DNA of 64,000 bases from a virus, in the IMG/VR virus record IMGVR_UViG_3300028269_000003, positions 1-64,000 of that record. The stretch is one strand, 5' to 3'. This document shows, piece after piece, positions 23,663 to 63,643 of the stretch. Position 1 is the stretch's first letter, and each line of letters begins with the position of its first letter. A model generated the notes under the pieces. The model ran no database searches. It worked only from the letters and a program-made list of their open reading frames with translations, and was not told the origin of the DNA. The position numbers were made by a program, and so were the translations under genes.

Positions 23663-23812
23663 TTAATAGCAAGTTGTTGTGCAGTTGTTATTATGACAGC
23701 AAGTGGTACATACTAAAACTTTTCCATCAACAATGATAGTGTTAGTTGAGCAACTAGCATGAGCAGTTAAAGAAATAGTCAGTAGTGTTGCAGCTAAAAT
23801 AAGTTTTTTCAT
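23663..23812 (-). CDS. Secreted Cys-rich 49-aa peptide
   Basis: The N-terminal 19 residues form a Sec signal (KKLILAATLLTISLTAHA, cleavage likely after AHA). The mature ~30 residues contain six Cys (SCSTN ... VCTTCCHNNNCTTTCY). ATTGGAGATTGAAATG gives a strong ribosome site. First clear gene after the leader RNA; phage B has a lipoprotein gene in the same slot. Export to a disulphide-forming compartment is inferred. Confidence 0.65.
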   Translation of the reverse strand: MKKLILAATLLTISLTAHASCSTNTIIVDGKVLVCTTCCHNNNCTTTCY

Positions 23813-23929: not shown

Positions 23930-24238
23930 TAATTTAAACTTATCACAAGTTTAAACGTATTAGCTTACGCATTGCACTATCACGGCTGGTGACTGCCGAT
24001 ACAAATTTGTAATCTACGCTGCTAGCAAGAAACAATCACCATGCGTCATAGTTCGCTATTAAGCCATTACAGCCGACCAGTTAGTACCAGTCCAGTGTTG
24101 CCACAGGTTGCGATTACCTTTCCCTACTCGCTGCGTCTATTAAGGCTCGCCGTGGTCTTTTACACCGCCGCTCTGGAATTGAACCATTCCGCTCACCTTG
24201 CCTCGTTAGTTTATTGAGATAGCATCCGCTTTCAGGTA
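23930..24238 (-). ncRNA. Structured late-operon leader RNA, phage A
   Basis: Transcribed leftward from the promoter at 24244-24273; no frame of useful length. Two blocks are shared with phage B (61010-61190). ACCTGAAAGCGGATGCT (24221-24237) at the 5' end is identical. A 44-base core (24094-24137) has 39 matches. The core holds two abutting hairpins, AGGT-AATCGCA-ACCT and GTG-GCAA-CAC (GNRA loop). Between the blocks is a 5-bp hairpin with a 6-base loop (24175-24190) whose sequence differs but whose form is kept in B. A GGTGATTG/CAGTCACC stem and the perfect TTTAAACTT/AAGTTTAAA hairpin (23933-23955) follow. Candidate cis-acting RNA, for example processive antitermination. Confidence 0.7.
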
Positions 24239-24243
24239 AATCT

Positions 24244-24273
24244 ATTATAAACACAAATTATAAATTATTGCAA
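24244..24273 (-). promoter_or_regulatory. Leftward late promoter, phage A
   Basis: On the minus strand TTGCAA (24268-24273), 18 bases, TATAAT (24244-24249, consensus). It lies just past the HTH gene and points at the leader RNA and late genes. The upstream bases (TTAGTTTGCAA) match the half-site of the TGCAAA dyads at the early promoters. Confidence 0.82.
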
Positions 24274-24274
24274 A

Positions 24275-24499
24275 CTAATTATACATACTAAGTGATTTTA
24301 AATTGTGCTTATCTTTACATAAATCATAGTGCAAGTCTAATAGTGCTATGGCTTTGCTAAACTTAGGCTCATACACTTCATGCCTTGCTAGATGCCCGAT
24401 ACTTTGAGCATCTATGTTGGTCTTTTTAGCTATCGCTTCGTAAGTTAAACCAGCATTTCGAAGGTTTAATATTATCCGTTGATAGTTAAGTTTAATCAT
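24275..24499 (-). CDS. Small helix-turn-helix protein (74 aa), candidate late regulator
   Basis: Residues 5-40 read as an HTH: YQRIILNLRNAGLTYEAIAKKTNI then DAQSIGHLARHEVYEP, followed by a C-terminal helix (FSKAIALLDLHYDLC). Near-identical to 61227-61451 and related to 28129-28317. ATGA overlap with the methyltransferase gene. It lies right before the late promoter in both phages, so a role in late transcription is plausible but not shown. Confidence 0.7.
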   Translation of the reverse strand: MIKLNYQRIILNLRNAGLTYEAIAKKTNIDAQSIGHLARHEVYEPKFSKAIALLDLHYDLCKDKHNLKSLSMYN

Positions 24500-25509
24500 G
24501 CGAATAAGTCCTGTGTTTTAACTTCAACATTGTTAAAGCGTTTGCCAGCCTCTTTTAAGTTTAATACAGCCTGTTTATAGTAGCTGTCTTTTAACTCAAT
24601 GCCGATTGCTCTACGGCCTAATGAAACTGCCGAAAACATTTCAGTTCCAATTCCAGCAAATGGAGTAAAAACAATTTCATTAGGGTTTGAATATAAATCA
24701 ACTAATCTATCCATAACGTCTAATTGCGTTGGCGTTACGTGCTTTTCGTCATCATCTTCTTTACTATCATGGTATGGCAATAAATTACCTTCTCTTACAT
24801 CATCCCAAACGCTTGAGGCGTAACGCTGCCAAATGTAATGATTTAATTTGCTAATCTTGTCATTTTCTTTTGTTGATTTAAGATGCTCAATAAGTTGCTC
24901 TGCTGTAAATTTTGTTTCATTAGCGTTATTAAATGCTTTTAACATATTGGGCAAAATAAGCGTATCGCCCGCATAATGTTGCAATCCAAATGGGTGAGTT
25001 ACTGGTACTTTATTTTCACCTTTCTTTTTAAAAATTAAAATGTAATCAGGATTAGCCGTAAAGCATTTAGTTGAATCTTCAACAATAAATTTGTGCATGA
25101 GCGATTGAACCATTGTTCTTATACGAACTTTTAAAGGTTCTTTCCATACTGTAATTCTGTTTTTATATTCAAATCCATATTTTTTGTATAAATCAATAAC
25201 TGCGCTTGGAAAATCTGCCAAAGTTCCATTCACTTCACAAATATCCGTAATATGCAAAGCATTAATTCTTCCTTGCTTTGTAACTCTTGCCATTTCTTTA
25301 ACAAGGTATTCAAATTGCTTTAAAAATTCATCAATACCACTTACATTGCTAAAATCTCTTTCACTGCTTGAATATGTGTAAAGAGACGCAAAAGGTGGAC
25401 TGTAAACAGATAAATCAATGCTTTCATCAGGCAATGATGGCAATATTTCCATGCAATCGCTGTTATAAATTGAGTATTGGTCTGTGTGTAATTGGTCTTT
25501 TGTAATCAT
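24496..25509 (-). CDS. DNA methyltransferase, amino-methylating, motif order IV-I
   Basis: 337 aa. Catalytic SPPF at residues 37-40 comes before the AdoMet-binding TPFAGIGTE near residue 285, the beta-class order. SPP[YF] is more usual in N4-cytosine enzymes, so either N4-C or N6-A activity is possible. No cognate nuclease gene is nearby, so protection from host restriction or epigenetic marking is likelier than a restriction system. In phage B the same domain is fused to the helicase. Confidence 0.82.
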   Translation of the reverse strand: MITKDQLHTDQYSIYNSDCMEILPSLPDESIDLSVYSPPFASLYTYSSSERDFSNVSGIDEFLKQFEYLVKEMARVTKQGRINALHITDICEVNGTLADFPSAVIDLYKKYGFEYKNRITVWKEPLKVRIRTMVQSLMHKFIVEDSTKCFTANPDYILIFKKKGENKVPVTHPFGLQHYAGDTLILPNMLKAFNNANETKFTAEQLIEHLKSTKENDKISKLNHYIWQRYASSVWDDVREGNLLPYHDSKEDDDEKHVTPTQLDVMDRLVDLYSNPNEIVFTPFAGIGTEMFSAVSLGRRAIGIELKDSYYKQAVLNLKEAGKRFNNVEVKTQDLFA

Positions 25510-60985: not shown

Positions 60986-61009
60986 TTTAATCTCCAATGA
61001 TTAAATTTT

Positions 61010-61190
61010 CGCTATTAAGACTGCGCCATAGTTTGGGCGAACCCTACAAATCTATCGCTTTACAATCCAACGTAATGTTTAGTGTTGCCACAGGTTGCGA
61101 CTACCTACCCATACTCGCTACGTCTGTGTCTGTTCTAATCTCAGAACGATGGCTAGGTCTATGGCATCTCACAGCATCCGCTTTCAGGTA
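61010..61190 (-). ncRNA. Structured late-operon leader RNA, phage B
   Basis: Shares with phage A the 17-base 5' block (61173-61189, identical) and a 44-base core (61081-61124, 39 of 44). The core keeps the AGGT-AGTCGCA-ACCT and GTG-GCAA-CAC hairpins. The intervening hairpin GTTCT-GAGATT-AGAAC (61132-61147) replaces GGAAT-GGTTCA-ATTCC with the same size. No coding frame. The lipoprotein gene starts about 25 bases after it. Confidence 0.7.
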
Positions 61191-61195
61191 TATCT

Positions 61196-61225
61196 ATTAT
61201 AAACATTATTTATAAATTATTTCAA
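61196..61225 (-). promoter_or_regulatory. Leftward late promoter, phage B
   Basis: On the minus strand TTGAAA (61220-61225), 18 bases, TATAAT (61196-61201). Same place and geometry as 24244-24273, right after the HTH gene. The -35 half-site has one change relative to TTGCAA. Confidence 0.78.
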
Positions 61226-61226
61226 A

Positions 61227-61451
61227 CTAATTAATCAGACTAAGCGATTTTAAATTATGCTTATCTCTACATAAATCATAATGCAAATCTAAAAGTGCTA
61301 TGGCCTTGCTAAACTTAGGCTCGTATATCTCATGCCTTGCTAAATGCCCGATACTTTGAGCATCTATGTTAGTTTTTTTAGATATTGCTTCATAAGTTAA
61401 ACCAGCATTACGAAGGTTTAAGATTATTCTTTGATAATTAATTTTAATCAT
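61227..61451 (-). CDS. Small helix-turn-helix protein (74 aa), phage B
   Basis: Nearly identical to 24275-24499 in the HTH region (AGLTYEAISKKTNIDAQSIG). ATGA overlap with the fused helicase-methyltransferase gene. Its retained position before the late promoter supports a regulatory link. Confidence 0.7.
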   Translation of the reverse strand: MIKINYQRIILNLRNAGLTYEAISKKTNIDAQSIGHLARHEIYEPKFSKAIALLDLHYDLCRDKHNLKSLSLIN

Positions 61452-63643
61452 GCGAATAAATCCTGTGTCTGCTTGCTTAGTTCGTTGATATTCTTAACAG
61501 CTTGCTCAAAATATGACTTTTTGAGTTCACTACCAATAAACCTACGCCCCATTTTAACGGCCGTGTAACCTTCGCTACCAACTCCCGTAAACGGACTAAA
61601 CACTAAATCATTAGGTGCAGTCCATAAATCTAAGGCGCGTTCAATAACATCAAGCTGCAATGGGCATATATGTTTTACATCATCATCTTCACGCGCATCA
61701 CGAAAGTTTAATGTTCTCGATTGGTCAATATCAAACCATACTGGGCTTGCGTATTTCTGCCATTTTTCAACTGGAAACTCTTCTGCTGTATGTGATACAG
61801 GGTGAGGATTAACGCCATCTTTACGCATAATAACAAGATAATCTGCTAATCCTTGCCTACTCATTGCGCTGTCTTTTTTAATCGTTTTATGAAGCAATCC
61901 AAGCGCTTTAGTGCGCTGCATTGCGACTACTGGGTCTTTCCATATACAAACTTCACTATGATATATCCATCCTTTTTCACAGAATAATCTAATCAACTCA
62001 CCGCGAAAATCACGAATGCCGATAAACCCATCATTTACTTTGCTAGTAGGCAAGTTCATGCAATGCACAGCCATCAATCTGCCTGGCTTTGTTATTCTTA
62101 ACATTTCATCTACCAAGTAACCAAAGTGCTGATAAAAGTCTGAATGGGTTTTACTGTTACCCATATCGCGGTCACTGTTTGAGTAGGTAAACAATGAAGC
62201 AAAAGGCGGTGAGTAAATTGTAAAGTCTATGCTATCTGATTCAATCTCACGCGCTAAATCAATACAATCTGCGTTATGCACAGTCCAGCCATCGCCATGA
62301 TATACATCACGCACATAATCATCTTTTTCAAGAATTGCGCCAAATACTTCTTTTTTCATTGACTCGCTCATATGTTTCACCATCTCCATGCCCATTTGAT
62401 TATTCTGCTCTTCTTTGCGTTTAATGTTAGCAACTACCGCGCCTTCTGATTCTGCACTTACTACGTGTACGTTGACTTCTTTTTCTTGACCGAAACGATA
62501 GAACCTGCGAATAGCTTGATAATACTGCTCCCAACTGTCTGATAAACCTACAAAAACAGTGTTATGGCAATTTTGAAAGTTCATGCCAGCACCTAGAATT
62601 TTAGGCTTGCTAACCAATACGCGCAGATTGCCATTTAAAAAGTCATGCACTGTTTTTTCTTTATGCTCAATAGTATCTGAACCTGACACATCAACCGCGC
62701 CATTAATTAACTTGCATAGCTTTTCAGCCTCTTCGTTACGGTGACACCATAAAACAAACTGCTCATCGCTTGCATTTACAATTTCAGCAACTTTAGCCAC
62801 GCGGTCATCTATTGATTCTTTACGTGCTTTGTTACGTTCGAGCAAGCCAGTAGCAATATCAGCAAATAAGTCAGTAGTCGGTTCTGATTCAACTACGTGT
62901 TCAATCATGTTTAATGGCGGCAATATATAAGCACTACCATCAAAACCTAAATCAGCAGGGCTTCGGATAACAACTGACCATGTAGCTAACCATTCCCAAA
63001 ATTTAGTGCGACCATGCCCTTTTAATATCCATGTTCCAGTATCGCCAGCATCATTGATAAAGTAAGTAGCTAGCATTTCAGCCATTCCCATAATGCCTAA
63101 AAACTCGCACTGGTTGCCTAATTCCATAAAGTCATTGGGTGAAGGCGTAGCAGTACAACTCAAACGATATGGCACTTGCTGACACGCTTCAATCATTGAA
63201 TTTCTAGTTTTTCCGTCACGGTTTTTTAAAATGCTAGACTCATCAAGTACAACGCCTGCAAATTCTGACAAATCAAAATGCTCTAGCATTTCATAGTTTG
63301 TGATATTGATTCCGTCTTTTATATTTTCACCGCTACGGCAATAATGAATATCAATTCCAAACTTCTGCCCTTCTCGCACTGTTTGTTGCGCTACGCACAA
63401 AGGCGCAAATATAAGCACGTTGCCATTAGTGTGATTAACAACTTCCTGCGCCCATGAAGTTTGCATTAAAGTTTTACCAAGTCCAGTATCAGCAAATATA
63501 GCTGCACGACCTCGCTTTAATGCCCACTTAACAATTACACGCTGGAAATCAAACAAGTTAGAATTAAGTGCATTTTCATCAACGTCAAATCCGCTAATGA
63601 TTGGGACTATTTTTTTTGCCTCTATAAATTCTTCGTATTTCAT
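61448..63643 (-). CDS. Fused SNF2-type helicase - DNA methyltransferase (731 aa)
   Basis: N-terminal helicase: DTGLGKT near 53-59, DESS, TATPSPNDF and QAIRRFYRFGQ. After a linker (SMKKEVFGAILEKDD) comes the methyltransferase: DCIDLA, catalytic SPPF, then SPFTGVGSEGY. The order matches phage A's two adjacent genes, so here they are one chain. The second ATG is taken as start for its spacing to GGAG. Coupling remodelling or translocation to methylation is inferred. Confidence 0.85.
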   Translation of the reverse strand: MKYEEFIEAKKIVPIISGFDVDENALNSNLFDFQRVIVKWALKRGRAAIFADTGLGKTLMQTSWAQEVVNHTNGNVLIFAPLCVAQQTVREGQKFGIDIHYCRSGENIKDGINITNYEMLEHFDLSEFAGVVLDESSILKNRDGKTRNSMIEACQQVPYRLSCTATPSPNDFMELGNQCEFLGIMGMAEMLATYFINDAGDTGTWILKGHGRTKFWEWLATWSVVIRSPADLGFDGSAYILPPLNMIEHVVESEPTTDLFADIATGLLERNKARKESIDDRVAKVAEIVNASDEQFVLWCHRNEEAEKLCKLINGAVDVSGSDTIEHKEKTVHDFLNGNLRVLVSKPKILGAGMNFQNCHNTVFVGLSDSWEQYYQAIRRFYRFGQEKEVNVHVVSAESEGAVVANIKRKEEQNNQMGMEMVKHMSESMKKEVFGAILEKDDYVRDVYHGDGWTVHNADCIDLAREIESDSIDFTIYSPPFASLFTYSNSDRDMGNSKTHSDFYQHFGYLVDEMLRITKPGRLMAVHCMNLPTSKVNDGFIGIRDFRGELIRLFCEKGWIYHSEVCIWKDPVVAMQRTKALGLLHKTIKKDSAMSRQGLADYLVIMRKDGVNPHPVSHTAEEFPVEKWQKYASPVWFDIDQSRTLNFRDAREDDDVKHICPLQLDVIERALDLWTAPNDLVFSPFTGVGSEGYTAVKMGRRFIGSELKKSYFEQAVKNINELSKQTQDLFA

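Follow-up and report, generated by a model that had tools for sequence, protein, structure and literature searches.

Processing of the RNase P type generates the end of 4.5S RNA and is also found for phage C4 RNA. The natural substrates of RNase P include the 4.5S precursor, mRNAs and phage RNAs, and an RCC sequence, recognised in addition to the T arm, is important for cleavage (PMC12710915). The put element of phage HK022 is about 70 nt long and is composed of two adjacent stem-loops (PMC9378689). Element 1, the RNA element described here, is like putL and putR in being a phage-borne, untranslated and structured RNA; putL lies just past its promoter, and put acts without a phage protein. Unlike put, element 1 mostly lies between genes, carries RCC ends and harbours an invariant, sarcin-ricin-like core. 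It resembles RNase P substrates (pre-tRNA, the 4.5S precursor, phage C4 RNA) by a 5' boundary that coincides with the base of a stem, itself followed by RCC, by its tandem arrays, by one copy beside a tRNA and by T-arm-like hairpins in some copies. In contrast with those substrates, its 3' base is usually U rather than A, and it has no Rfam match to tRNA, SRP RNA or c4. It shares with GOLLD and ROOL the features of a structured noncoding RNA of aquatic phages, but these are much larger, with a different fold, and neither has an Rfam match in the element loci.

Late-gene leaders of phages A and B

The window, i.e. the whole stretch of DNA that was analysed (64,000 nucleotides), belongs to a 66,967-base virus record in which two apparent tandem prophages, A and B, adjoin two tRNA-Arg genes. 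Leader A is found on the minus strand, where it precedes phage A's late genes; phage B has a counterpart. The first-pass annotation had described leader A as a ~300-base noncoding transcript opened by a consensus-like promoter, and both descriptions were borne out. The noncoding stretch is ~300 nt long and is followed by two short ORFs, of 33 and 49 aa, then by an acetyltransferase-like ORF. The two promoters, for which a scan of the window leaders by itself was not above chance, place the predicted +1 on one and the same base of element 1 (24237 in A, 61189 in B). The late genes of the two phages are unrelated, as had been claimed, with TerL, a podovirus-type portal and MCP behind leader A versus TerS, TerL, a siphovirus-type portal, MCP and tail J behind leader B. 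The features surrounding the leaders are the following:

24273-24244, minus strand: promoter of leader A, TTGCAA-18-TATAAT (10/12), with the -10 box ending 6-8 nt 5' of the stem, as in nine other copies
61196..61225, minus strand: promoter of leader B, TTGAAA-18-TATAAT (11/12), with the -10 box placed likewise
24275..24499, minus strand: gene of a 74-aa HTH protein of phage A, directly upstream of the promoter
61227..61451, minus strand: gene of a 74-aa HTH protein of phage B, within an 89% identical segment common with A
23663..23812, minus strand: small ORF, secreted and Cys-rich (MKKLILAATLLTISLTAHASC...VLVCTTCCHNNNCTTTCY), the first clear gene downstream of leader A, from sequence reading

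Small Cys-rich proteins ending in VCTTCCxxxNCTTxC, many of them secreted-looking, are found beside element 1 in unrelated phages (the window ORF at 23663-23812, L141, L153, L154, L073 and L097). Upstream of the late promoter, where a gene of the Q family was sought, stands the gene of the 74-aa HTH protein, with no Q match. A link between this HTH protein and element 1 was rejected, as a 70% identical relative occurs in contig L007 without the element.

Both sequence blocks that had been reported to recur in phage B are present, but only one of them is informative on its own. The 45-nt block (40/45 identity) is an independent conserved block, whereas the 17 identical bases lie at the end of a longer segment (296 nt, 89% identical) in which the HTH gene and the promoter are included, and they therefore do not count as independent evidence. 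This 89% identical DNA (24223-24516 and 61173-61468 of the window) ends exactly at the end of the 5' conserved strand of element 1, which suggests that phages A and B may have recombined at the element.

Consensus and structure of element 1

A search of IMG/VR with the 17-mer retrieved mostly portal-like coding sequences, together with a contig (L013) that carries a second shared string. The 17-mer alone was discarded, although it still led to the real family. A two-part pattern matched 38 contigs of IMG/VR, a longer-gap version 6 and a relaxed version at least 119. Altogether, at least 147 distinct copies of element 1 were extracted, mostly from uncultured aquatic phages. Their consensus reads [stem 3-7 bp]-(G/A)AAA-GC-GGAUG-CUG-[variable]-CAG-ACGYA-GC-GAGUA-[stem], usually then ACCU, with a variable interior of about 28-86 nt. 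The search patterns fixed parts of this core; GAAA and GAGUA are constant even where they were not demanded. Covariance modelling had been proposed as a check in the first-pass annotation, and model R1, built without the window sequences, confirmed both leaders as members of the family:

24116..24240, minus strand: element 1, phage A copy, with 5' strand ACCTGAAAGCGGATGCTAT and 3' strand ATAGACGCAGCGAGTAGGG (R1, E=5.2e-8; R2, E=4.9e-11)
61103..61192, minus strand: element 1, phage B copy, with +1 predicted at 61189 (R1, E=2e-9; R2, E=2.4e-12)

The claim of a conserved structured RNA is strongly upheld by covariation. Among 102 copies, 93.7% of the pair cells are standard and 222 are double-changed, versus 92.8 in shuffles, and controls with slid partners fail. 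The closing (outer) stem covaries strongly and alternates freely among G-C, C-G, U-G and U-A. On the sense strand, G.U pairs exceed A.C by 60 to 27, indicating that the conserved entity is the RNA of the gene strand. These analyses support a model of element 1 as a single uninterrupted, irregular helix whose apical part varies. As read from the sequence, GAGUA opposite GAAA would form a sarcin-ricin-like (bulged-G) motif. The MFE of the whole leader was rejected as a sign of structure (z = -0.48, not significant). As the whole leader is not unusually stable, the case for a structured leader rests on covariation in its homologues.

A different type of explanation is a DNA-level linker that favours modular recombination between phages. 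Interiors have been swapped between the conserved strands, and the upstream identity of A and B stops precisely at the 5' one, as such a linker would predict. Nevertheless, compensatory changes and the G.U pairs of the sense strand point to RNA, and both orientation and position are fixed, which makes a DNA linker scarcely credible.

At gathering scores, an Rfam 15 scan of the window found no family matching the leader; the tRNA model (RF00005) matched only the two tRNA-Arg genes. Scanning 13 element loci gave no match to any family, including tRNA, SRP RNA, c4, GOLLD, ribozymes and riboswitches, and a permissive Rfam search with leader A and a four-unit array yielded chance-level matches only. 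The earlier statement that the RNA belongs to no named family thus holds for Rfam 15. Element 1 appears to represent a previously uncatalogued family outside that database; it might be listed in a published catalogue of phage structured RNAs.

Distribution and copy number

The strict pattern identified only 4 contigs, all from metagenome bins, in about 85,000 species genomes, and a stricter pattern found none in that set. With the covariance model, matches were obtained in 4/401 and 2/399 genomes of two host groups, and one host-genome match is next to a Tad2-like gene, in surroundings that resemble a prophage. Among named phage records, element 1 was detected only in two metagenomic circular genomes (Manatee Spring), using BLAST with three stem variants, which is a weak test. 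When phages and plasmids were searched by BLAST with the leader, the single match was to element 2 (see below) in MW202512.1. This near-absence from cultured phages and bacterial genomes may explain why element 1 is absent from Rfam.

Most genomes harbour one copy, and a few have two or tandem arrays, which comprise 2-4 units. The array of L073 (minus strand, about 2640-2990) contains four tandem units, all of which have a stem of their own and a trailing A/RCC; its two outer units keep only the GAAA/GAGUA loop, without the GGAUG/ACGYA loop. A variant copy is found in an apparent bacterial chromosome (L208:1516-1560), preceded by a terminator-like hairpin and followed by an exonuclease III gene.

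Genetic environment of element 1

The placement of element 1 is its most telling feature. In 114 copies, the stem comes shortly after the end of an upstream reading frame, and the distance from stop codon to stem is 3-8 nt in 97 of these 114. A -10 box ends 6-8 nt 5' of the stem in 10 copies, those of A and B among them, as compared with about 0.24 per position elsewhere upstream; in these ten promoter-driven copies, whose promoters are sigma70-like, transcription should begin at the first bases of the stem. One copy is located about 5 nt after a tRNA-Leu gene. From these placements we infer, as the simplest reading, that the RNA requires a 5' end located at the stem.

The upstream genes mostly code for proteins that bind or anneal ssDNA, from at least five unrelated families (Enc34-type, DUF669, SSB, Gp2.5-like and RecT). 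This frequent association would be consistent with a 3'-UTR element of the ssDNA-binding protein genes, involved in mRNA stability or autoregulation. However, the window copies and the other promoter-driven ones do not fit, nor do the copies that follow Gp157, endonuclease VII, Acb2, small Cys-rich ORFs or a tRNA, and we consider a 3'-UTR function very unlikely.

The downstream genes belong to many unrelated families (MazG, HTH, nucleases, Tad2, Acb2, DNA polymerase, unknown), in keeping with the claim that the RNA is conserved independently of what follows. In many copies, an SD sequence and a start codon occur within about 15-30 nt of the stem. Together with the compact helix, its conserved internal loops and the existence of tandem copies, this could indicate a riboswitch-like 5' leader that controls translation or senses a ligand for the next gene. 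Nevertheless, about half of the copies have no SD-bearing gene start within 60 nt, and the presence of RCC is independent of the downstream gene. A gene-specific riboswitch was rejected because the downstream genes are too varied, and a riboswitch-like leader in general appears quite unlikely.

A put-like antiterminator for a ~19 kb operon had been put forward in the first-pass annotation, i.e. a nascent RNA that binds its own RNA polymerase and suppresses downstream pausing and termination. Element 1 is untranslated, is placed at +1 of the late promoters in the window and does not depend on the following genes. Furthermore, sequence reading revealed terminator-like hairpins with U-runs roughly 130-200 nt past the element in L026, L054 and L173. 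Its architecture of one irregular helix is nevertheless unlike the two stem-loops of HK022 put, and the covariance model has no match in the HK022 genome. Most copies are embedded in early recombination operons, usually behind two or more operon genes, and in several complete contigs the co-directional genes after element 1 cover <1 kb. We looked for terminators in window leaders A and B and found none, and the RCC pattern, with its RNase P-type ends, is not explained by antitermination. The proposal was thus not supported, and we regard it as unlikely for element 1, put-like antitermination of the window's long late operons being possible.

Anti-defence families are found near element 1, namely Tad2-like proteins (L132, L209) and an Acb2/Tad1 hairpin (L035, L049, L060). 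Long, ornate noncoding stretches also occur beside it in L071, L020, L038, L073, L081, L105, L111 and L132, such as AATACGCCAAGCCGGTAGTGGCG...CCCTGC and CAAGACGCATGAGGATT...AGTCCTCAGTCGTGTTGGT; those of L073 and L020 gave no Rfam matches.

RCC motif and the 5' end of the RNA

The stem is followed by RCC in 111/145 copies of element 1, and RCC is found at the exact offset after the stem in 80/145, versus 4.2 expected. It is present in 1/10 promoter-driven copies as opposed to 110/135 of the others (p = 7e-6), a comparison that involves only ten promoter-driven copies and copies that are not phylogenetically independent. Both window copies, which start at +1, are devoid of RCC, and the stems of promoter-driven copies are slightly shorter. 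L097 has a promoter and RCC together, and L099, L129 and L169 are possibly promoter-driven, with RCC. Counting against processing by RNase P, the base at -1 before the stem is mostly C, and U rather than A predominates at the fourth position past the stem. T-arm-like hairpins were identified in 9 copies, versus 0.2 in shuffled sequences, with canonical T-arms in the minority. RCC occurs whether or not a gene lies close downstream (53/69 copies with one, 59/68 without), and the hypothesis that ACCU is an anti-SD signal for the next gene was ruled out, since RCC is as common where no such gene follows.

The boundary after stop codons and the invariant internal loops combined with variable stems might evoke a new ribozyme, one that cleaves itself at the 5' boundary. 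Self-cleavage would however be pointless for the copies that start at +1 and would leave RCC unexplained; with no match to an Rfam ribozyme family in addition, it is highly improbable.

We tentatively favour, at slightly less than even chances, a new phage RNA family with a 5' end made by RNase P or set by +1, and with a core that binds a host factor. On sequence grounds, RNase P would cut embedded copies just 5' of the closing stem. In promoter-driven copies, initiation at +1 would supply the 5' end, making RNase P unneeded in the window phages. Both situations would give a product RNA whose 5' end is sealed in a stem. The invariant core, composed of the sarcin-ricin-like GAGUA/GAAA loop, 2 bp and the GGAUG/ACGYA loop, might bind a conserved host factor, and the RNA might act as a stable small RNA or as a protective or processing leader. 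Its action is probably not gene-specific, because the downstream genes differ. A search of the phages' own genomes for antisense targets of the variable interiors gave none beyond chance; the one long match has the wrong sense.

That phages with unrelated neighbour genes share a 29-nt invariant core implies that they have a strong function in common, with a conserved partner in the host. From the stop-codon/+1 rule and the RCC contrast, it is predicted that phage mRNAs are released or re-ended by RNase P at element 1 sites. A bolder and doubtful extension would make element 1 a new class of phage small RNAs that RNase P frees from ordinary mRNAs of the phage, much as tRNAs are cut out of a tRNA cluster. 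Its sarcin-ricin-like core and swappable apical domain would then engage or decoy a host ribonucleoprotein or a tRNA-directed defence.

A second element in the leaders

The conserved core with two abutting hairpins, one of them with a GCAA loop, that had been noted in the first-pass annotation does exist, but it constitutes a separate element, which we call element 2, and is not part of element 1:

24050..24119, minus strand: element 2, phage A copy, AGGU-n7-ACCU-GUG-GCAA-CAC ... CUUAAUAGCG, from an alignment that also includes B, MW202512.1 and one phage of IMG/VR
61007..61106, minus strand: element 2, phage B copy, from the alignment, with the first hairpins conserved and the later part diverged

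The pattern of element 2 is AGGU-n7-ACCU-GUGGCAACAC...CUUAAYAGCG. In MW202512.1 and in one IMG/VR phage, it stands alone immediately past a stop codon, with no element 1; loci outside the window are L065:19985-20085 and L186:2690-2790. Since element 2 occurs alone, the window leaders combine two separable phage RNA elements. The late transcripts of the window phages would open with element 1, then element 2, and the AGGU of element 2 could pair alternatively with the ACCU at +1 in both A and B.
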